A DNA stretch of 48,906 nucleotides from NCBI GenBank assembly GCA_021324185.1, contig JAJPJN010000143.1, forward strand, positions 1 to 48,906, written 5' to 3'. How positions within the stretch are numbered: the first letter of the stretch is position 1; the number at the start of each line of letters is the position of its first letter. The DNA comes from Terriglobia bacterium. Lineage in GTDB: Bacteria; Acidobacteriota; Terriglobia; Bryobacterales; Bryobacteraceae. A program made the translations under genes and the position numbers. Positions 17,977 through 28,228 of the stretch are shown piece by piece. Under the pieces are notes generated by a model that saw only the letters and a list, made by a program, of their open reading frames with translations, was not told the origin of the DNA and searched no databases.

Positions 17977-19632
17977 ATGTCACGCCAACTACCACCACGT
18001 CCGAGCATCGATCAACTCAGAAAACAAGCTAAATCGTTGTTGAAGCGCCAGCGCGCCGCAGACCCCGAAACTTTGACGCGCATCCGGAAAAGCCATCCGC
18101 GTTGGGAAAGGCTGTCGGAACAGCAGCTCGCTGGATTGCCATTTACGCTTGGGGACGCGCAGCTCGTGATCGCAAACGAATATGGACTCCCCTCCTGGTC
18201 CAAACTGCAATCGCATGTCAAGACGCTGGAGGCCGCGAGCGCGACCGCGGAGATTGTCGCGTCTTTGCGCGATGCCGCCGGAAAAGGTGATCTCGCCCGG
18301 CTGAACGCGCTGCTGTATGCGCATCCGGAGCTGATTAACGAGCGCGGCGGCGAGGGGGTGAGAACAGCGCTCCACCAAGCCGTCTTTGGCAACAGCGAAG
18401 CGGCTGTCAAGCTGCTGCTGGAGCGCGGAGCTAATCCTAATATTCGCTGCGAGGGCGACAATGCCTACCCGTTACATTTCGCTGTCGAAAAGAACCGCGT
18501 TCCCATCATCCGCCTTCTCGTCGAGCATGGCGCGGATACGGTAGGTGAGGGCGATTACCACGAGCTTGGGGTTATCGGCTGGGCCACTGCATGGGAGCAC
18601 TTTCAGCCCGACCCTGAGACGGTGGCTTATCTGCTTGCTCATGGCGCGCGCCACAATATCTTTTCAGCCGTTGCAATGGGAGATGTCGCGGCCATTCGCA
18701 GCCTCATAGCGCGCCGCCCCGAAGACTTGGAACGCCGGATGAACGGATCGAGAATGAGGCCCATGCCGCTGCATTTGGCCGTTATCCATCGCCAGCCAGC
18801 GGCGCTGCTCACGCTTCTCGATCTGGGTGCAAACATCGAGAGCCTTGACGAGGCCGGATTCACTCCCCTCGATCATGCCGCTGTTATCGGCGCATCTGGC
18901 ATGGTTTCTATTCTCATGGACGCCGGAGCCAAGCTGCGTCTTCCTGCCGCTGCCGCCCTCGCCCGCCATGCCGATGTAGCGCGCCTGCTACGCCGCGACC
19001 CCGGCGCTCTGAAGCCAGGGGGCCGCTGGAGCCGCCTGATCGTCCGCGCCGCCGAGTACGGTTCGGCCGGGATGATCGAAACCCTCCTCTCCAATGGCGC
19101 CTCCGTGAATATCCGCGATGATCCCAAAACATCCATCGACGCCACCGCCGGCTACACGCCATTGCACGCCGCGGCATGGCACGGCAATCTCAACGCAATT
19201 CGCGTGCTGTTGGATCACGGCGCCGATGTCCGTGCCCGCGAAGAGAAGTATCACGGCACCCCCGCCGGCTGGGCGGACTATGCGGGTCACAAAGAAGCTC
19301 GCGATCTCATCCTGGCTGGACCCATCGACATCATTGAGGCGATCCAATACGGGCTGATCGATCGCGTGGTCAAGGTCCTGGAAGAGGATCCAGCTTCTGT
19401 CAACCGGCCATTCCGGGACTATGGTTTATTTCCCTGGGATGCTGAGGAATGGTACACGCCGCTGGCCTATGCCGTTACGCGCGGGAATGCAGCGATCTCC
19501 CGCCTGTTGCTGGCGCGCGGGGCGGATGCCACGTTGCGGTCGCCTCAAGGCATGGCATTGAAAGATCTCGCGCAGAATGCTGGCCATGGAGAGCTTGCAT
19601 CGATTCTCGACAGCGCAGCGGCGGAGAGATGA
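17977..19632 (+). CDS. Ankyrin repeat protein with conserved acidobacterial N-domain
   Basis: The protein has 551 residues. The N-terminal 85 residues (RPSIDQLRKQAKSLLKRQRA, then LGDAQLVIANEYGLPSWSKL) form a helical module often found at the head of acidobacterial ankyrin proteins. Residues about 100-545 contain some 10-12 ankyrin repeats, several near-consensus (TALHQAVFGNSEAAVKLLLE, TPLHAAAWHGNLNAIRVLLD, TPLAYAVTRGNAAISRLLLA) and several degenerate in the middle. There is no signal peptide or membrane segment, so it is probably cytoplasmic and binds other proteins; no enzymatic domain is seen. AAAGGAG lies 5 nt before the ATG. The 180 bp upstream hold no gene and probably contain its promoter. 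Confidence 0.9.
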   Translation: MSRQLPPRPSIDQLRKQAKSLLKRQRAADPETLTRIRKSHPRWERLSEQQLAGLPFTLGDAQLVIANEYGLPSWSKLQSHVKTLEAASATAEIVASLRDAAGKGDLARLNALLYAHPELINERGGEGVRTALHQAVFGNSEAAVKLLLERGANPNIRCEGDNAYPLHFAVEKNRVPIIRLLVEHGADTVGEGDYHELGVIGWATAWEHFQPDPETVAYLLAHGARHNIFSAVAMGDVAAIRSLIARRPEDLERRMNGSRMRPMPLHLAVIHRQPAALLTLLDLGANIESLDEAGFTPLDHAAVIGASGMVSILMDAGAKLRLPAAAALARHADVARLLRRDPGALKPGGRWSRLIVRAAEYGSAGMIETLLSNGASVNIRDDPKTSIDATAGYTPLHAAAWHGNLNAIRVLLDHGADVRAREEKYHGTPAGWADYAGHKEARDLILAGPIDIIEAIQYGLIDRVVKVLEEDPASVNRPFRDYGLFPWDAEEWYTPLAYAVTRGNAAISRLLLARGADATLRSPQGMALKDLAQNAGHGELASILDSAAAER

Positions 19633-19954: not shown

Positions 19955-20287
19955 TTAAGCGCGATCGCACCCGAGGGAGAACTGGAGCGCCGCACAAATT
20001 TGGTCCATGCGCGCCGAATTCAGCCGTGCTACTCGCCTTCCTAATCTTGCCTGCGAGACGGTGACAGCGTTGTGGAGATTGACTACGCAGACTGTCTTCA
20101 GTCCATCCTCCTCGCTGAGCAAGACCTCTGAGGGCACCCCGCGTATTGCCGATGTGATCGGGGCTATGGTCACGGTGCTCAGGTAATTGATCGCGCTATC
20201 ACGGGTGAGCACGACAAGGGGTCTACTTTTGTCAGGTGGTGCGAATTGATACAGACGAATATCGCCTCTGCTTATTCCGCTGGCCAC
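19955..20287 (-). CDS. MazF/PemK-type toxin, probable endoribonuclease
   Basis: The protein has 110 residues, the usual size for MazF toxins, which cleave mRNA at short motifs. Family features are visible in order: the opening GDIRLYQFAPPDKSRPLVVL with the beta1-beta2 loop, TVTIAPITSAIRGVPSEVLL with the T-S-x-I-R-G motif that carries catalytic residues, and KTVCVVNLHNAVTV, followed by the C-terminal helix. The start is a GTG at 20287 that overlaps the last 16 nt of the antitoxin gene, as expected for coupled translation. Activity is inferred from family membership; it is not shown that the cell contains a sensitive target. Confidence 0.87.
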   Translation of the reverse strand: MASGISRGDIRLYQFAPPDKSRPLVVLTRDSAINYLSTVTIAPITSAIRGVPSEVLLSEEDGLKTVCVVNLHNAVTVSQARLGRRVARLNSARMDQICAALQFSLGCDRA

Positions 20288-20502
20288 ATCGCCTCGCCTT
20301 CCCAGCGCGATGGCTCATCGGTTGGAGGGTGCTTCGAGTAGCCCTCGCGGTCGCGCTGCTCAAGTGCGCGGAGTTCCAGCCTACGAAGGTGCTCTCGGAG
20401 CGCATCGCGAATCAGCGCAGACCGATGCTGCTTCATCCGGCGGGCAGCGCGATCGACGGCACTTAGCAGCTTCCGGTCAAGGACCACCTGAATCGTCTCC
20501 AT
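20272..20502 (-). CDS. Ribbon-helix-helix antitoxin partner of the MazF-like toxin
   Basis: The protein has 76 residues from the ATG at 20502. The open frame begins at 20571, but the RHH fold starts at METIQVVLDRKLLSAVDRAA, so the later start is preferred. Residues 1-45 are a ribbon-helix-helix DNA-binding domain (beta strand TIQVVLD, then two helices ending SALIRDALREHLRR). The acidic/aromatic tail (EGYSKHPPTDEPSRWEGEAM) probably binds and blocks the toxin. It is upstream of and overlaps the toxin gene, the normal antitoxin-first order. Such antitoxins usually repress their own operon; no operator is obvious by eye. Confidence 0.85.
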   Translation of the reverse strand: METIQVVLDRKLLSAVDRAARRMKQHRSALIRDALREHLRRLELRALEQRDREGYSKHPPTDEPSRWEGEAMWPAE

Positions 20503-20579
20503 ACTGTCGATCTTATTCCACAGTAGCGCCGGCTGAAAAAACCGGCGGCGGACTAGAAAGGCCGGCTCCACGCGGGTGT

Positions 20580-21968
20580 TTAGTGGACGGCGGCGCCGGC
20601 GGTCACGTTTAGTTCCTTGACAATGCTGCCTACGAAGGCTTTGGCGTCGCCGAAGAGCATGAGGGTTTTGTCGAGGTAGTAGAGTTCGTTGTCAATGCCT
20701 GCAAAGCCGGGGCTCATGCTGCGTTTGATGACCATAACGGTGCGGGCTTCGCAGGCATTGAGAATGGGCATGCCGGCGATGGGACTGGTTTTGTCGTTAC
20801 GGGCGGCGGGATTGACGACGTCGTTGGCGCCAATCACCAAGGCGACGTCGGCGCGCGGGAATTCGGGGTTGATGTCGTCCATCTCAAAGAGGCGATCGTA
20901 AGGAACGTCGGCCTCGGCGAGCAGCACGTTCATGTGGCCGGGCATGCGGCCGGCGACCGGATGAATGGCAAACTTGACGTCGACGCCGCGCTTCATCAGC
21001 ACATCGTGCAGCTCGCGGAGTTTATGCTGGGCCTGCGCAACGGCCATGCCGTAGCCGGGAATCACGATGACGGTCCGAGCCGCATCGAGAATTTCTGCCG
21101 CTTCTTCCGGGGAAGCGGATCGAACGGGGCGCGCGACAGCTTTCTTGGCGCTAGTCTGGATGGCGCCGAAGGCGCCGAACAGAACATTGCTGAAGGAGCG
21201 ATTCATGGCGCGGCACATGATGACAGAAAGAATGAAGCCGGAAGAGCCGTCAAGCGCGCCGGCGACGATCAGGAGCTTGTTATCCAGCGCAAAACCCATG
21301 GCGCTGGCGGACAGACCGGCATAGGAGTTCAGCAGGGCGATGACGGTGGGCATGTCCGCGCCGCCGATGGGAATGATCAGCAGCACGCCAAAGATGAGCG
21401 CGAGGGCGGCAAAGATGGGATAGAGCGCCATCTGCTCCGGATGAAAAATCAGAATGACGCCGAGGACGATGGCGGCGCCGAAGATGCCGAGATTGACGAA
21501 ATTCTGGCCACGATAGGTCATGGGGCGCGTGGGCAGAATTTCCTGCAGCTTGCCGAAGGCCATCAGACTGGCGGTGAAGGTGAGAAAGCCGAGCAGTGTT
21601 TCGACGATGAGCGCCGTCATGACGAAGCCATGCGGCAGGGTGCGATAGTATTCGGCGGTTCCGATCAAGGCCGAGGCGAGCGCGCCGCATGCGTGCGAAA
21701 AAGCGGTTCGCTGGGGGACAGCCGTCATCGGCATGATGTAGGCGATGGGAACGCCGATGGCTGAGCCGATGAAGAAGGCAATGAGTATCCATTCGTAATT
21801 GACGACTTCGTGACGAAGCAGCGTGCCTACAACGGCGAGGAGCATGCCGAGCTCGCCGACAAGGACGCCGCGGCGGGCGGTGGCGGGCGAGTTCATCCAC
21901 TTGATAGCGAGAATGAAGCCGGCCGCAGCGAGGATGTAGAGAGCGGGGAAGATATTGTCGATGGTCAC
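20580..21968 (-). CDS. pntB: NAD(P) transhydrogenase subunit beta
   Basis: Membrane and NADP(H)-binding subunit of proton-translocating transhydrogenase, which uses the proton gradient to reduce NADP+ with NADH. The 462 residues match the family. About nine membrane segments fill residues 1-260. The C-terminal domain III (about 285-462) binds NADP(H): VIVIPGYGMAVAQAQHKLRE is the nucleotide-binding loop, and GRMPGHMNVLLAEADVPYD and DVALVIGANDVVNPAAR are hallmark motifs. The start is GTG, overlapping the pntAB stop as GTGA. It is the last gene of the operon. A weak stem at 20527-20547 downstream lacks a following T run. Confidence 0.96.
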   Translation of the reverse strand: MTIDNIFPALYILAAAGFILAIKWMNSPATARRGVLVGELGMLLAVVGTLLRHEVVNYEWILIAFFIGSAIGVPIAYIMPMTAVPQRTAFSHACGALASALIGTAEYYRTLPHGFVMTALIVETLLGFLTFTASLMAFGKLQEILPTRPMTYRGQNFVNLGIFGAAIVLGVILIFHPEQMALYPIFAALALIFGVLLIIPIGGADMPTVIALLNSYAGLSASAMGFALDNKLLIVAGALDGSSGFILSVIMCRAMNRSFSNVLFGAFGAIQTSAKKAVARPVRSASPEEAAEILDAARTVIVIPGYGMAVAQAQHKLRELHDVLMKRGVDVKFAIHPVAGRMPGHMNVLLAEADVPYDRLFEMDDINPEFPRADVALVIGANDVVNPAARNDKTSPIAGMPILNACEARTVMVIKRSMSPGFAGIDNELYYLDKTLMLFGDAKAFVGSIVKELNVTAGAAVH

Positions 21969-22264
21969 TTGCCGGGCTCCCGCTCCCGCTTTTTGAACAT
22001 CTTCAACATGCGGTCAGTAATGAGATAGCCGCTGACGACGTTGGTGACGGACGCCACAACGGCGATGAATCCGAGCGTGCGGGTCAGCGGAGTGGCCTCT
22101 TTTTCACCCGTAATAAGAATTGCGCCGACCACGGCAATGGCCGATATTGCGTTGGTGAGGGACATCAGCGGGGTATGCAGCAGAGGCGATACGCGGCGAA
22201 TGAGCTCGAATCCCAGGAAAGCGGCGAGCATGAAGATCCAGATGGCGATTTCGTACTTGTTCAT
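21965..22264 (-). CDS. pntAB: NAD(P) transhydrogenase membrane subunit alpha-2
   Basis: The protein has 99 residues and three to four membrane helices. This is the membrane part of the alpha subunit, which in many non-enterobacterial species is a separate polypeptide. MSLTNAISAIAVVGAILITG matches the conserved segment that ends in the proton-channel region, and GFIAVVASVTNVVSGYLITD follows. The frame continues upstream to 22543, but the ATG at 22264 overlaps the pntAA stop as ATGA and starts the membrane domain. It in turn overlaps pntB by 4 nt, so all three subunits are translationally coupled. Confidence 0.94.
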   Translation of the reverse strand: MNKYEIAIWIFMLAAFLGFELIRRVSPLLHTPLMSLTNAISAIAVVGAILITGEKEATPLTRTLGFIAVVASVTNVVSGYLITDRMLKMFKKREREPGK

Positions 22265-23445
22265 GTCCGGACGCTCCTCTCTTCGGATTGGGAGGGGGCG
22301 ATGAGTTCTCCGATTCGCTGGTTGAAGATCTGGCCGTTGTGAGAGACCAGAGTCTCGCGGATAATTTCGTCTTCCATGTTGATGTTGATTGCGCCTGCGT
22401 TCACCAGCAGCTTCAGGAAGGAGCTGATGTTTGCGGAGAGCATTTGGCTGGCGTGATAGGGGACCATAGACGGCAGATTGACGGGGCCGACGATGGTGAC
22501 GCCCTGATGAAGGAAGACTTCGCCGGGGCGGGTGAGTTCGCAATTGCCGCCGCGCTCGGCCGCGATGTCGACCAGGACGGAACCGGGAGGCATGGCCTCG
22601 AGCATTTCGCCGGTGATCAGGATGGGCGATTTGCGGCCGGGGACGGCAGCGGTGGTTATGACGACGTCCTGCTCGCGAAGAACCTCGGTGAGCAGCTCGC
22701 GCTGGCGCCGATAGAACGCTTCATCCATCGCTTTGGCGTAGCCGCCTTTATCTTCAGAAGATTTTGTTTCGATATCGAGCACGATAAATTTGGCGCCGAC
22801 GCTTTCGACCTGTTCTTTGACGACCGGGCGAACGTCATAGGCGCAGACCACGGCGCCGAGGCGGCGCGCGGTGGCGATGGCCTGGAGGCCGGCGACGCCT
22901 GCTCCTAGAACGAAGACTTTAGCAGGAGTCAATGTGCCGGCGGCGGTCATGAGCATGGGGAACATTTTCGGCAGATGCGTGGCGGCGATCAGAACGGCGC
23001 GGTAGCCGGAGATGGTGGCCATGGAGGAGAGCGCGTCCATGCTTTGCGCGCGCGTGATGCGGGGCATTAACTCGAGCGCGAAGAAGGAGACGCCGGTTTG
23101 GGCTAACTGGAGGTCCTGCTTGAGGGCGGTGAGCGGTTCACCGAAGCCTACGACGATCTGGCCGGGGCGGAGAAGCGGGAGATCGGCTTCACCCTGCTCG
23201 GGGTTGGCGCCGAGCGAGCGCACTTGCGCGATGATATCGGCTTCGGCAAACACATCGGCGCGGCTGCCGAAACGGGCGCCGCGGGATACATAGGTCTCAT
23301 CGGGGTAGCCGGCTTCGGTTCCGGCGCCTGTCTCAACGAGAATGTCGAGACCGATTTTGCGCAGCGCCTCACAGTGGCGCGGCGCCAGTGCAACGCGGCG
23401 TTCTCCGGGGAACGTCTCACGAGGAACTCCAACAATGGCAGGCAA
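22261..23445 (-). CDS. pntAA: NAD(P) transhydrogenase subunit alpha-1 (NAD-binding)
   Basis: The soluble NAD(H)-binding domain I of transhydrogenase, 394 residues, related to alanine dehydrogenase. N-terminal VPRETFPGERRVALAPRHCE and the Rossmann loop LGAGVAGLQAIATARRLGAV are diagnostic, as is the mobile-loop region ending KGGYAKAMDEAF. The start is TTG at 23445 with GGAGG 5 nt upstream; the conserved N-terminus begins exactly there. The operon is divergent from the GltD-like/2-oxoacid oxidoreductase operon across 160 bp. Confidence 0.96.
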   Translation of the reverse strand: MPAIVGVPRETFPGERRVALAPRHCEALRKIGLDILVETGAGTEAGYPDETYVSRGARFGSRADVFAEADIIAQVRSLGANPEQGEADLPLLRPGQIVVGFGEPLTALKQDLQLAQTGVSFFALELMPRITRAQSMDALSSMATISGYRAVLIAATHLPKMFPMLMTAAGTLTPAKVFVLGAGVAGLQAIATARRLGAVVCAYDVRPVVKEQVESVGAKFIVLDIETKSSEDKGGYAKAMDEAFYRRQRELLTEVLREQDVVITTAAVPGRKSPILITGEMLEAMPPGSVLVDIAAERGGNCELTRPGEVFLHQGVTIVGPVNLPSMVPYHASQMLSANISSFLKLLVNAGAININMEDEIIRETLVSHNGQIFNQRIGELIAPSQSEERSVRT

Positions 23446-23549
23446 CGAAGCCTCCGTTTCCGTTAACTAATTGATGATTATCTAAAGCGACGGGCGCGCG
23501 CAAGCGGAAGTTACGTCCGGATCCGCGCGATTCGAAAAAGCGAACCTCG

Positions 23550-23555
23550 TATAAT
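23550..23555 (+). promoter_or_regulatory. Candidate -10 element of the oxidoreductase operon
   Basis: A perfect TATAAT lies 56 nt before the TTG start at 23606, in the 160-bp region shared with the divergent pnt operon. No good -35 hexamer is found at 16-18 bp spacing, so this may need an activator. On the other strand, an AT-rich patch near 23465-23485 could serve the pnt operon. Confidence 0.45.
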
Positions 23556-23605
23556 ATTAGGCCAACAGAGACATTCGATCCCTGTACGGATCGGAGGCAG
23601 CAAGC

Positions 23606-25393
23606 TTGGACGCTACTGACATCAATAACCCGCAGTACTTCCACAAAGTGGTTGACTGTCAATGGGCGTGCCCAGCGCACACAAATGTTCCCGAATATAT
23701 CCGGCTGATTGCGCAGGGACGGTACACCGATGCGTATATGGTGAACCGGGAATCGAACGTTTTTCCAGCTATTTTGGGGAGAACGTGCGACCGGCCTTGC
23801 GAGCCTGCCTGCCGGCGGGGCCGGGTGGACACGCATCCGGTGGCGATCTGCCGGTTAAAGCGCGTGGCTGCGGATCTGAAGGGCGAGATCAAGCATCTGC
23901 TGCCGAAGATTCCGGCGCAAAAGAACGGGAAACGGATCGCCTGCATCGGCGCAGGACCAGCTTCGCTGACGGTTGCCAATGACCTGATGCCCATTGGCTA
24001 TGAGGTGACGATTTTCGAAAAGCTGGATAAGCCGGGCGGCTTGATGCGCTCGAATATTCCTGCGTTCCGGCTGCCGGAGCAGGTGCTTACCGAGGAAGTG
24101 AATCTGATTCTCGATATGGGGGTCGAGATTCGTTATAACTCGCCGGTGAAGAGCATGCGGGAGCTGCTCGCGAGCGGGTACGATGCTGTGTTTGTGGGGA
24201 GCGGGGCGCCGCGCGGCAAGGATCTGGAACTGCCGGGGCGGCACGAGACCGACCGCATTCATATCGGCATCGACTGGCTGGAATCGATTGCGTTTGGACA
24301 TATCCATTCGATCGGCGAGCGGGTTCTGATTATCGGTGTGGGCAATACGGCGATGGATTGCTGCCGGTCTTCCTGCCGGCTGGGTGGAAAAGAGATCAAG
24401 GTAATGGCGCGGCGGCCGCGTCCGTATTTCAAAGCATCGCCGTGGGAACTGGAAGATGCCGAGGAAGAGGGCGTGGAGATTGTGGTCAACCACGCGCCGA
24501 AGCAATTTGTGATTGAAAACGGGAAGCTGACCGGGATGATTTTCGAGCGGCTGGAGTGGGACGCGCAAGCGAAGAAGTCGCGCACTCTGGACGAGGTTTT
24601 CTATCCGGCAGACGATGTGATTCTGGCCATCGGGCAGGAGAATGCGTTTCCGTGGATTGAGCGCGATCTGAGGATCGAGTTCGATAAATGGGGCCTGCCG
24701 GTGGTGAATGAGACCACGTTTGAATCGACGCGTGCGGGTGTATTCTTTGGCGGCGATTCCGCTTTTGGACCGAAGAATATTATTTGGGCCGTGGAGCACG
24801 GGCATCAGGCTGCGATATCGATTCACAATTTCTGCCGCAGCATTCCGGTGACGGAAAGGCCGGCAGCGGGCATGAAACTGATGAGCCAGAAGATGGGAAT
24901 CAGCGAGTGGAGCTACCACAACGATTACAATCCCGTGCACCGGCAGAAGATGAAGCATGTGGATCTGGCAGAGCGGTTCCGCAAGCTGAATATTGAAGTA
25001 GAGCTCGGCTTTGATGCGGAACAAACGGCGCGGGAGGTAGAGCGCTGTCTGAACTGCGATATTCAAACCGTATTCAGCGCGCCGCGCTGTATTGAATGCG
25101 ATGCCTGCATCGACGTGTGCCCGGTGCAATGCCTGACCATTACCCGCAATGGAGAGGAACTGGATCTGCGTTCCAGGCTTTCGGCTCCGGCGCTGAACCT
25201 GGATCAGGCGCTTTATGTTTCACCGCCTCTGCCGCATACGCAACGCATCATGGTGAAGGACGAAGATATCTGCGTTCACTGCGGGTTATGCGCCGAGCGG
25301 TGTCCCACGGCAGCGTGGGACATGCAGAAGTTCGAGCTGGCGATCGCGTACGCAGACAGTACATCATGCATGAACAGCTACGTCCCGGCGTAA
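23606..25393 (+). CDS. GltD-like FAD/NAD(P)H and Fe-S oxidoreductase with C-terminal ferredoxin domain
   Basis: The protein has 595 residues. N-terminal Fer4_20 domain with Cys18, Cys22, Cys61, Cys65 and Cys69. FAD-binding Rossmann motif CIGAGPASLTVANDLM, and NAD(P)-binding motif IIGVGNTAMDCCRSSCRLGG, followed by ARRPRP, which favours NADPH. The C-terminal 100 residues carry two 4Fe-4S motifs (CIECDACIDVCPVQC and CVHCGLCAERCP). It resembles glutamate synthase small subunits and NfnB-type flavoproteins but lacks a glutamate synthase partner. It overlaps the 2-oxoacid oxidoreductase alpha gene, so it probably moves electrons between NAD(P)H and ferredoxin or that enzyme. The start is TTG with GGAGG 8 nt upstream. 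Confidence 0.9.
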   Translation: MDATDINNPQYFHKVVDCQWACPAHTNVPEYIRLIAQGRYTDAYMVNRESNVFPAILGRTCDRPCEPACRRGRVDTHPVAICRLKRVAADLKGEIKHLLPKIPAQKNGKRIACIGAGPASLTVANDLMPIGYEVTIFEKLDKPGGLMRSNIPAFRLPEQVLTEEVNLILDMGVEIRYNSPVKSMRELLASGYDAVFVGSGAPRGKDLELPGRHETDRIHIGIDWLESIAFGHIHSIGERVLIIGVGNTAMDCCRSSCRLGGKEIKVMARRPRPYFKASPWELEDAEEEGVEIVVNHAPKQFVIENGKLTGMIFERLEWDAQAKKSRTLDEVFYPADDVILAIGQENAFPWIERDLRIEFDKWGLPVVNETTFESTRAGVFFGGDSAFGPKNIIWAVEHGHQAAISIHNFCRSIPVTERPAAGMKLMSQKMGISEWSYHNDYNPVHRQKMKHVDLAERFRKLNIEVELGFDAEQTAREVERCLNCDIQTVFSAPRCIECDACIDVCPVQCLTITRNGEELDLRSRLSAPALNLDQALYVSPPLPHTQRIMVKDEDICVHCGLCAERCPTAAWDMQKFELAIAYADSTSCMNSYVPA

Positions 25394-27189
25394 ACGATTT
25401 CGCAATCAAGCTCGCCAACGTCAACGGAACGGGATCGGCCAGTGCGAACGGGCTGATCATGCAAGCCATTTTCCGGATGGGCATTCCGGTATCCGGAAAA
25501 AATCTGTTTCCTTCGAATATTCAGGGCCTGCCTACGTGGTACGAGATTCGGGTGAATCGCAGCGGCTACACGGCGCGGTCGCTTGATTACGACCTCATGG
25601 TGGCGATGAATGCGCAGACGTACCGGCAGGATATTCGCGAGGTGCGGCAGGGCGGGTACGTTCTTTATGATTCGAGCTGGCCGCTGGACCGGAATCTGTA
25701 TAGAGACGATGTGAACTTTCTGCCGATTCCGCTGGCGCAGATGATGAACGAAAAATTCGCGGACGCGCGGCAGCGGATTCTGCTGAAGAACATTGCGTAT
25801 GCGGGAGCGCTGGTGGCGCTGCTGGATATTGATCTGCCGATTGTGGAAGAGCTGCTGGCGGAGACGTTTGCGGGGAAGGCGGCGCTGCGCGAATCGAACC
25901 GCCAGGCGCTGCACATGGGCCGCGACTATGCACGGGAGCATTTTAGCTGCCCGCTGGATTTCCATCTTGCAAAGATGAACGCCAACGATGGAAAGATTTT
26001 GATCGATGGGAACACGGCGACGGCGCTGGGCTGTCTTTATGCGGGGGCGAGTTTCGCGGCGTGGTATCCGATTACGCCGGCGACGTCGGTGATGGATGCG
26101 TTCCGGGGCTTTTGCGAAAAATACAGAAAAGATCCGGAGACGGGGCGCAACAATTTTTTGATTCTGCAGGCGGAGGATGAATTGGCGGCGATCGGGATGG
26201 TGATCGGCGCCTGCTGGAACGGAGCGCGGGCATTTACATCGACGTCGGGGCCGGGCATTTCGCTGATGAACGAGTTGATCGGGCTGGCGTATTATTCGGA
26301 GATTCCGGCGGTGATCATTGACGTGCAGCGCGTGGGGCCGTCGACGGGCATGCCGACGCGGACACAGCAAGGCGATCTGCTGGAGTGCGCCTATGCGTCG
26401 CACGGGGACACGCGGCATATTCTGTTGTTCCCGGCGAATCCGGCGGAGTGTTTCGATTTCGCGGTGCAATCTTTCGATCTGGCGGAACGATTTCAGACGC
26501 CGGTGATGATGCTTTCGGATCTGGACATCGGGATGAACGACTGGGTTGTGCCACGGCTGAAATGGGACGATTCGTACCGGCCGGATCGCGGGCGCGTGCT
26601 ATCGGCGGAAGATCTGAAAGATATTCCGAAGTTTCACCGTTATTCGGATGAGGACCAGTATTATGTTCCGCCGCGGACGCTGCCGGGGGTGGACCCGAAA
26701 GGCGCATATGTGACGCGCGGGTCAGGGCACAATAAATTCGGCGGCTACACGGAGACGCCGTCGGAATATCAAGAAGTGGTGGACCGTCTGGCGCATAAGC
26801 AGAAAGCAGCGGCGGAGCTGGCGCCACGGCCGGAGATACAGAACGGCGCGGGGTCGAAGTACGGTGTGATTACTATCGGAAGCTGCGATATTGCGGTACG
26901 CGAAGCTGTGGAGCTGCTGGCAGGGCGCGATATTCCGCTTGATTATTTGCGCATTCGGGGCTTTCCGTTCCACAGAAGCGTAGAGGAATTTCTGTATGCG
27001 CACGAGGTTACGTTTATCGTGGAGCAGAACCGGGATGCGCAGCTTCGATCCTTGCTGACGCTCGAGACATGCGTGCCGAAAGAGCGGCTGCGGTCGGTTT
27101 TGGCGTACGGTGGTTTTCCGCTGAGCGCGCGCAATGTGGTTGAAGGAATTGTGAATCATCTGGAGGCGGGCCATGCCGTCCATCGCTAA
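25366..27189 (+). CDS. korA: 2-oxoacid:ferredoxin oxidoreductase, fused gamma-alpha subunit
   Basis: The protein has 607 residues from the ATG at 25366, which overlaps the end of the previous gene by 28 nt; the longer open frame from 25096 lies wholly inside that gene. Residues about 10-190 form the gamma domain (GTGSASANGLIMQAIFRMGI). From about 210 on is the pyrimidine-binding alpha domain with the YPITPATSVMD motif that contacts the 2-oxoacid, the glutamate-containing LQAEDELAAIGMVIGACWNG, and the C-terminal domain II. With KorB it cleaves a 2-oxoacid to acyl-CoA and CO2 while reducing ferredoxin. 2-oxoglutarate is the likely substrate of this subunit type, but pyruvate or branched 2-oxoacids are possible. 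Confidence 0.92.
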   Translation: MHEQLRPGVNDFAIKLANVNGTGSASANGLIMQAIFRMGIPVSGKNLFPSNIQGLPTWYEIRVNRSGYTARSLDYDLMVAMNAQTYRQDIREVRQGGYVLYDSSWPLDRNLYRDDVNFLPIPLAQMMNEKFADARQRILLKNIAYAGALVALLDIDLPIVEELLAETFAGKAALRESNRQALHMGRDYAREHFSCPLDFHLAKMNANDGKILIDGNTATALGCLYAGASFAAWYPITPATSVMDAFRGFCEKYRKDPETGRNNFLILQAEDELAAIGMVIGACWNGARAFTSTSGPGISLMNELIGLAYYSEIPAVIIDVQRVGPSTGMPTRTQQGDLLECAYASHGDTRHILLFPANPAECFDFAVQSFDLAERFQTPVMMLSDLDIGMNDWVVPRLKWDDSYRPDRGRVLSAEDLKDIPKFHRYSDEDQYYVPPRTLPGVDPKGAYVTRGSGHNKFGGYTETPSEYQEVVDRLAHKQKAAAELAPRPEIQNGAGSKYGVITIGSCDIAVREAVELLAGRDIPLDYLRIRGFPFHRSVEEFLYAHEVTFIVEQNRDAQLRSLLTLETCVPKERLRSVLAYGGFPLSARNVVEGIVNHLEAGHAVHR

Positions 27190-28228
27190 ACCGCTAGCGC
27201 GCCATCCAGCGCTAAAGCAGAACGAATTGGGACTGACGATCCGTGATTATGAAGGATCGATGTCGACGCTGTGCGCCGGATGCGGGCATGACTCGATTAC
27301 GGCGGCCATTGTGCGAGCGCTGTGGGAGATATCGATGCAGCCGCATATGCTGGCGAAGATGAGCGGCATCGGCTGCTCGTCGAAGACGCCGGCGTATTTC
27401 GTGAATGGCGCGCACGGATTCAATTCGGCGCACGGGCGCATGCCGGCGATTACAACGGGCGCGGCGGCGGCGAATCGCGAGCTGACGTACATCGGAGTAT
27501 CGGGGGATGGCGACTCGCTCTCGATCGGGATCGGGCACATGTGCCACGCGATCCGGCGCAATGTGCGGATGGTTTACATCATCGAGAATAATGGGGTTTA
27601 CGGGCTGACCAAGGGCCAGTTTTCCGCCTCAGCCGATGTTGGATCAAAGAGCAAGCGCGGGGAGCCTAACCAGTTTGCGCCGATTGATCCGGTGATGCTG
27701 GCGCTGAGCATTGGAGCTACTTTTGTGGCGCGCAGTTTTTCTGGCGATAAAGAACAGCTTGTGCCGATTTTGAAGGCGGCGTTCCGGCACCGCGGGATGG
27801 CGCTGATCGATGTGATCTCGCCGTGCGTGACATTCAACGACCATACGGGATCGACCAAGAGTTACCTGTATACGCGCAAGCATGCGGTGAGCGCAACGGA
27901 TGCGGATTTAGTTCCGCCGGCAAGCGAGATCGTCGCCAATATTTCGGCGCAGGATGTGACAGCCGTGACATTGCACGATGGAAGCATTTTGCGGTTCCGC
28001 TCCGTGCCGGAGGGCTATGATCCGACGGATCGCGTGAAGGTGACCAGTTACTTACAACAGCGGCAGCAGAAGGGCGAAATTATCACGGGACTGTTGTTTG
28101 TGAATGAGCATGTTCCCGACATGCACGAGATGAACAACACAAGCGATACGCCGCTGGCGCGAATGCCGTACGAGAAGCTGTGTCCGGGGTCGGCGGCGCT
28201 AGAGCAATTGCAGGAAGAGTTCCGGTAG
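27173..28228 (+). CDS. korB: 2-oxoacid:ferredoxin oxidoreductase subunit beta
   Basis: The TPP-binding subunit, 351 residues. The TPP motif runs from GDGDSLSIGIGHMCHAIRRN to IIENNGVYGLTKGQFS. Four conserved cysteines, Cys34, Cys37, Cys68 and Cys218 (LCAGCGHD, GCSSK, ISPCVTFNDH), are placed to bind one 4Fe-4S cluster. The gene overlaps korA by 17 nt and has GGAGG 6 nt before its ATG. Together, korA, korB and the GltD-like gene make an apparent three-gene operon. The enzyme is oxygen-sensitive in many organisms but occurs in aerobes too. Confidence 0.94.
   Translation: MPSIAKPLARHPALKQNELGLTIRDYEGSMSTLCAGCGHDSITAAIVRALWEISMQPHMLAKMSGIGCSSKTPAYFVNGAHGFNSAHGRMPAITTGAAAANRELTYIGVSGDGDSLSIGIGHMCHAIRRNVRMVYIIENNGVYGLTKGQFSASADVGSKSKRGEPNQFAPIDPVMLALSIGATFVARSFSGDKEQLVPILKAAFRHRGMALIDVISPCVTFNDHTGSTKSYLYTRKHAVSATDADLVPPASEIVANISAQDVTAVTLHDGSILRFRSVPEGYDPTDRVKVTSYLQQRQQKGEIITGLLFVNEHVPDMHEMNNTSDTPLARMPYEKLCPGSAALEQLQEEFR

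Follow-up and report, generated by a model that had tools for sequence, protein, structure and literature searches.

A korC-korA-korB operon of a Terriglobia bacterium probably encodes a 2-oxoacid oxidoreductase linked to NADP+

The window analysed here, a stretch of 48,906 nucleotides from a Terriglobia bacterium (contig JAJPJN010000143.1 of assembly GCA_021324185.1), carries three adjoining genes, korC, korA and korB, that diverge from the transhydrogenase genes pntAA, pntAB and pntB, and the three kor genes are a real unit. We consider it likely that they encode one complex, a 2-oxoacid:NADP+ oxidoreductase that acts most probably on 2-oxoglutarate, works in the oxidative direction and delivers electrons to NADP+ and not to ferredoxin. 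The overall reaction would be 2-oxoglutarate + CoA + NADP+ -> succinyl-CoA + CO2 + NADPH. In the proposed mechanism KorA and KorB would decarboxylate the 2-oxoacid on thiamine pyrophosphate (TPP), and the electrons would leave through KorB's only [4Fe-4S] cluster and reach the pair of C-terminal clusters in KorC. This pair would stand in for the ferredoxin, separate or present as a domain, that other members of the family use. From there the electrons would pass to the N-terminal clusters of KorC, to flavin adenine dinucleotide (FAD) and finally to NADP+.

Conservation and anatomy of the KorC, KorA and KorB proteins

Named genomes were scanned with an alignment (A1) and the best 80 of at least 589 confirmed matches were kept, from which all the 80-locus counts given here derive. 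korA follows korC in 77 of these loci with a gap of at most 148 bp, the contigs of the other three stopping within 151 bp, and korB comes next in 69 of the 77, the remaining eight being cut off by the contig end either inside korA or no more than 38 bp from it. KorC was matched at E<=1e-90 in 21 genomes of a phylum sample of 247, and after exclusion of G022, G035 and G048 (38-39%, ~1e-91) 18 genomes with KorC of the window clade were retained, all of which carry korA and korB downstream of korC on the same strand (in G243 korC is broken by contig ends, with its tail ahead of korA). The preliminary description of this DNA had taken frequent separation of the gene for the GltD-like protein, here korC, from korAB in relatives as grounds against its reading; such separation was not seen in the 77 assessable loci or the 18 phylum genomes and the gene belongs with korAB, with a reservation for nine genomes of one genus (g42) that is taken up below. 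The hosts of korC-korA-korB belong to Pseudomonadota, Actinomycetota, Gemmatimonadota, Myxococcota, Binatota and Acidobacteriota, and include Maricaulis maris DSM 4734 (locus L173).

A second alignment (A2) combined the window with 36 of the 80 loci, L107 being omitted as its frame holds a stop. The KorA tree comprised 58 rows, taken from 19 of the 80 loci, 16 of the 18 phylum stretches, two plasmid loci, 20 loci with no korC and the window. Its 38 rows with a korC neighbour and its 20 Acidobacteriota rows without one fall on the two sides of one branch (100/100). The Acidobacteriota KorA proteins with korC occupy three separate places among the other phyla, a scatter which points to horizontal transfer.

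KorC is a protein of 595 amino acids with an N-terminal Fer4_20 domain, a two-Rossmann domain for flavin and pyridine nucleotide (Pyr_redox_2) and a C-terminal two-cluster ferredoxin domain. Its N-terminal cysteines C18, C22, C61, C65, C69 and C82 are Cys in 80/80 homologues, as are C481, C484, C495, C498, C501, C505, C509, C556 and C559, while C562 and C566 are Cys in 79/80. In the second Rossmann motif an arginine pair falls on the RR of NfnI with bound NADP(H); residue 269 is R in all 80 homologues, of which 59 carry K and 21 carry R at residue 270. The likely NADPH site proposed earlier is in keeping with this alignment, and KorC very likely makes the enzyme NADP(H)-linked.

The label 'GltD-like' holds as far as the domain family goes, but the best scores are with PRK12771 (the best NCBIfam score, 391.8 bits, under the family cut-off of 516) and the large subunits of NfnABC and StnABC, and not with GltD proper. 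GltD shares the domain family with KorC, which differs in having no GltB alongside. A scan of the neighbouring genes gave no glutamate synthase large subunit beside korC, and the Glu_synthase match of the genome lies in a 1553-codon open frame on another contig; the missing glutamate synthase partner of the preliminary description is thereby borne out, and KorC as GltD was set aside. The large subunits of NfnABC and StnABC align collinearly with KorC from residue 11/17/18 to about 490/507 (9n5u, 8oh5, 9bov) and are the top Foldseek matches of a KorC model of middling confidence. The N-terminal CxxC segment of Xfn/NfnI aligns with the C481/C484 segment of KorC (8 bits, not significant alone) and the rest of that chain with KorC 17-410, and the layout of KorC appears to be permuted relative to Xfn/NfnI, i.e. 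of the NfnABC/StnABC type known from solved structures. Flavin, NADP(H) and N-terminal cluster domains are common to KorC, NfnABC/StnABC and Xfn/NfnI (5vj7, 5jca); both of these groups consist of bifurcating or ferredoxin-NADP enzymes with other partners, whereas KorC is encoded with KorAB and has a two-cluster ferredoxin domain at its C-terminal end.

KorA is a gamma-alpha fusion with a TPP domain, and KorB has a TPP domain and the four cysteines of the catalytic cluster. The same fused KorA and KorB make up 6n2n, which we take to be the 2-oxoglutarate:ferredoxin oxidoreductase of Magnetococcus marinus, an enzyme that presumably uses free ferredoxin. On the korC-korAB order, the division of KorA and the RR motif, it is likely that the GltD-like protein passes electrons between the 2-oxoacid enzyme and NADP(H), as had been suggested, with 2-oxoacid oxidation and NADPH output.

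Linkage to the transhydrogenase operon

According to domain searches PntAA, PntAB and PntB form the complete set for a proton-translocating NAD(P) transhydrogenase, and pntB is the single PF02233 match of the genome. korC is present in 13 of the 17 genomes of the window genus (own included; the four without it are 55-89% complete), and in 12 of these 13 pnt lies divergent from korC on the same contig. Within the same family, G187, G275 and G276 carry korC and pnt on different contigs. An Acidobacteriia bin (L102) has korC and pnt together, and elsewhere pnt lies near korC in L118 (divergent), L123 (same direction) and L158 (divergent, 3.5 kb off), which gives 4 linked cases among the 52 loci whose contigs extend 5 kb or more upstream of korC. 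The chance expectation from real flanks and genome sizes is ~0.18 for 50 of these loci (0.27 by a cruder estimate). As the KorA tree makes L118 and L123 sisters and L102 lies close to the window group, the independent linkage events number two or three, for which the chance is ~0.015 and ~0.001, respectively. L118 and the window are 51% identical in PntB and 72% in KorC, a gap that suggests separate origin of the linkage there; for L102 the values are 76% and 77%.

PntB was found in 17/18 korC-positive genomes of the phylum sample (the miss being G243) and in 84/229 others (Fisher 1.2e-6, with kinship ignored). A check of genomes reached through 50 of the 80 loci, drawn from those 52 long-flanked loci by leaving out L177 and L179, found PntB in 48/50, with no background rate alongside. 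In 16/17 phylum relatives no pnt lay beside korC in the 1.7-13.6 kb fetched upstream, and L064 offered only 121 bp. pnt as an obligate neighbour of korC was rejected as a general rule on these 16 relatives, G275, G276 and G248. The 'redox block' of both operons described earlier thus stands for 12/13 korC genomes of the window genus and a few others, but it is not general for KorCAB.

Within the gap between the operons a TATAAT (23550-23555, plus strand) lies 50 bp before korC and matches exactly in 11 of the 13 sequences aligned (the window among them); a generic sigma-70 scan of the 160 bp found no complete promoter, and the TATAAT became apparent only from the alignment of relatives. A control region common to both operons in most genomes of the genus would make the NADPH produced (or needed) exchangeable with NADH, and co-regulation of korCAB with pnt may be expected from this arrangement. 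The role of pnt beside korCAB may be either NADPH supply by both enzymes or reverse operation of Pnt.

Host genome, substrate and competing explanations

At E<=1e-20 the genome shows a single KorA of this type. It also encodes the E1 component of 2-oxoglutarate dehydrogenase, in a 1312-codon frame that holds an E2 (2-oxoacid_dh) domain as well (G000:C94:2513-5926) and presumably resembles the fused enzymes of mycobacteria; another E2 gene adjoins an apparent lipB (by eye). In a sample of relatives E1 was present in 53/60 genomes (own included) and in 14/15 of those with korC, and was not found in G262. Replacement of 2-oxoglutarate dehydrogenase by KorABC was rejected because E1 is present in the own genome and in the 14 korC relatives; KorABC is accordingly an addition to the oxidative cycle, and would provide a route yielding NADPH instead of NADH. 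The retention of a further 2-oxoglutarate route, one that would make NADPH, beside the dehydrogenase calls for a testable explanation. No protein of PF06050 (HGD-D), which we take to be the family of some benzoyl-CoA reductase subunits, was found in the genome, other types of this reductase not having been searched for.

On plasmid 2 of Aromatoleum aromaticum EbN1 the three genes recur in unchanged order, with KorC, KorA and KorB 57.6, 52.6 and 56.7% identical to those of the window. The operon is annotated there as 'FAD-dependent oxidoreductase' and '2-oxoacid:ferredoxin oxidoreductase', and with such annotation metabolic models may send the electrons to ferredoxin or infer a reverse tricarboxylic acid (TCA) cycle from korAB. 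A 2-oxoglutarate:NADP+ oxidoreductase of Azoarcus (Aromatoleum) evansii was reportedly described by Ebenau-Jehle, Boll and Fuchs in 2003. In passages of a paper on isoprene reduction, one GltD-group clade holds NsoC homologues together with a subunit of the A. evansii enzyme (PMC10134865), which is a 2-oxoacid enzyme with NADP+ as acceptor; the electron-transfer mechanism of the preliminary description therefore has a precedent in print. Part of another text links the A. evansii enzyme to electron supply for aromatic ring reduction (PMC8163825), a counterpart of which was not detected in the window genome by the PF06050 search. Electron supply to benzoyl-CoA reductase was set aside for this genome within the limit of that search, and a role other than aromatic ring reduction is needed. 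KorABC of the window is probably a further, widely spread and under-recognised relative of the A. evansii type, and the portions of the literature returned by our search gave nothing closer for korC in this sense or for pnt with such enzymes in Acidobacteria.

Passages of a study on Sulfolobus tokodaii tie alpha Thr256, Arg344, Thr349 and Asp468 and beta Lys49 and Leu123 to substrate binding, and argue that losing the negative charge of alpha Asp468 favours 2-oxoglutarate when the residue is Leu (PMC5020499). Among the loci covering each stretch, alpha Thr256, Arg344 and Thr349 are retained in 76/76, 75/75 and 75/75, beta Lys49 in 69/69 and Leu123 in 68/68, while the position of Asp468 is Ser in 73/74 and Ala in 1/74. 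It is somewhat unlikely that the same NADP+-linked complex, in a variant nested within the explanation we favour, uses mainly another 2-oxoacid (pyruvate or a branched-chain one) and takes 2-oxoglutarate as a side substrate. The nearest solved chain to KorA, 6n2n_A, belongs to a 2-oxoglutarate enzyme and speaks against this variant. The change from Asp468 to Ser removes the negative charge in question and the printed A. evansii relative is named for 2-oxoglutarate (PMC10134865), whereas the broad-range Sulfolobus enzyme has Lys49 and Leu123 too (PMC5020499) and the genome already has a 2-oxoglutarate dehydrogenase E1, both of which favour another substrate.

As to the electron carrier, KorAB might depend on ferredoxin in the ordinary way, with KorC acting independently as a ferredoxin:NADP+ oxidoreductase and the two serving one pathway with no complex between them; the resemblance of KorC to Xfn/NfnI chains and the inserts in nine g42 genomes, where adjacency of korC and korA is dispensable, agree with this, but KorC brings its own two-cluster ferredoxin domain, KorA divides by the presence of KorC and the order is retained at every assessable locus, so that we hold this arrangement to be unlikely. 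KorC might also bifurcate or confurcate in the way of NfnABC and StnABC, tying 2-oxoacid oxidation to NADP+ and a second carrier, and it is to the large subunits of these enzymes that its best structural and sequence matches point; as neither the operon nor the scanned neighbours hold a second flavoprotein subunit, this appears very improbable.

As to direction, the potentials of 2-oxoglutarate (~-0.49 V) and NADPH (~-0.32 V) mean that oxidation releases ~33 kJ/mol. The complex could instead act as a 2-oxoglutarate synthase, a carboxylase driven by NADPH, with pnt lifting the NADPH/NADP+ ratio, for which the adjoining pnt in most genomes of the genus may be cited. Excerpts on tubeworm symbionts likewise describe transhydrogenase genes clustered with a 2-oxoglutarate oxidoreductase (korABCD-pntAB) in reverse-TCA clusters, but these differ in the four-subunit ferredoxin type of the enzyme and in the presence of Hdr-Flx and ATP-citrate lyase (PMC6315080, PMC11636981). 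Reverse operation would cost ~+33 kJ/mol under standard conditions by these potentials, beyond one proton per hydride, and the genome has a 2-oxoglutarate dehydrogenase E1; we give it hardly any weight. The NADPH-driven carboxylation that the preliminary description had offered beside oxidation is hence thermodynamically unlikely (~30 kJ/mol uphill by the same potentials).

A more speculative extension of the oxidative, NADP+-linked complex, which we regard as rather improbable, is that KorABC and Pnt form an energy-conserving loop free of ferredoxin and Rnf, in which KorABC would draw on the low potential of 2-oxoglutarate oxidation to drive NADPH/NADP+ very high and Pnt would run backwards, passing hydride to NAD+ and pumping a proton out. 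If it were true, a cell with 2-oxoglutarate dehydrogenase as well as KorABC could alternate between the usual NADH route and another that either conserves roughly one proton per turn or gives NADPH. Its trace would be that korCAB became linked to distantly related pnt operons several times independently.

Several observations count against a single NADP+-linked complex acting on 2-oxoglutarate, or against parts of it. In 9/10 genomes of genus g42, inserts of 2.5-11 kb with other genes separate korC from korA, so that close co-transcription does not hold everywhere. KorC as modelled by AlphaFold has a pLDDT (predicted local distance difference test) of 70.8 with cluster regions <50, and for the latter reason was set aside as evidence for an electron path. 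Residue 270 of KorC is Ser, which is not basic, in the branch of Aromatoleum and f21 (L065-L068, L071, L076, L181), possibly a difference in cofactor preference. A. aromaticum has Thr at the position of alpha Asp468 where the window has Ser, and the solved M. marinus chain has Arg where KorB of the window has Lys49; the substrate residues fit 2-oxoglutarate or a broad range, short of proof. The kinship with the A. evansii enzyme is judged through the sequences of A. aromaticum EbN1. Finally, G248, the nearest genome by KorC (87%) and of the same genus, lacks pntAA in the 994 bp that its contig offers upstream of korC, its draft being in 1040 contigs so that a true difference and an assembly join are not distinguishable.

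Gene layout and neighbouring features

The six genes lie at the positions first described, and the coordinates and domains agree with the divergent pnt and korCAB operons, the gap between them and the overlap of korA with korB set out in that description (Table 1). pntAB overlaps pntAA and pntB by 4 nt each, korC and korA overlap by 28 nt with the ATG chosen for korA, and korA and korB by 17 nt. korC starts with TTG, preceded by a GGAGG at 23593-23597. The listed korA frame, which opens at 25096, is too long: by homology the protein starts near 25366.

Table 1. Features of the divergent pnt and korCAB operons in the window
Feature	Position	Strand	Basis
pntB, NAD(P) transhydrogenase beta subunit	20580..21968	-	PF02233, 1.1e-177
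pntAB, transhydrogenase alpha subunit, membrane part	21965..22264	-	PF12769, 1e-32
pntAA, transhydrogenase alpha subunit, soluble part	22261..23445	-	AlaDh_PNT_N and AlaDh_PNT_C
Divergent control region (putative), 160 bp between facing starts	23446..23605	none	sequence and alignment
korC, GltD/Nfn-family FAD, NADP(H) and Fe-S subunit (predicted), C-terminal two-cluster ferredoxin domain	23606..25393	+	domain, profile and alignment searches
Fer4_20 domain of KorC, aa 17-92	23654..23881	+	domain search
Second Rossmann motif GVGNTA...MARR of KorC, aa 240-270	24323..24415	+	alignment with RR of NADP(H)-bound NfnI
C481/C484 pair and ferredoxin motifs C495-C505 and C556-C566 of KorC	25046..25315	+	domain search, alignments
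korA, 2-oxoacid oxidoreductase gamma-alpha fusion	25366..27189	+	TIGR03710 over cut-off; POR, POR_N; closest solved chain 6n2n_A
korB, TPP/[4Fe-4S] beta subunit, cysteines C34, C37, C68 and C218	27173..28228	+	domain search, alignments

The nine g42 genomes with inserts (L066-L068, L071-L076) vary in the genes inserted between korC and korA, but all share a DNA piece of ~310-350 bp that sits inside a small open reading frame of 118-126 aa in at least four of them; several g42 KorC and KorA proteins also bear variable in-frame insertions. In G248 the frame that takes the place of pntAA upstream of korC (L195:3551-4544) resembles, by eye only, the large subunit of a molybdenum hydroxylase. Directly downstream of pntB the window encodes a PemK/MazF-type toxin (19955-20571, minus strand) with a ribbon-helix-helix partner upstream; no PemK protein was found in the stretches from genus and family relatives, which extend ~1 kb past pntB. 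Beyond it lies a gene for an ankyrin-repeat protein of 551 aa (17977-19632, plus strand).

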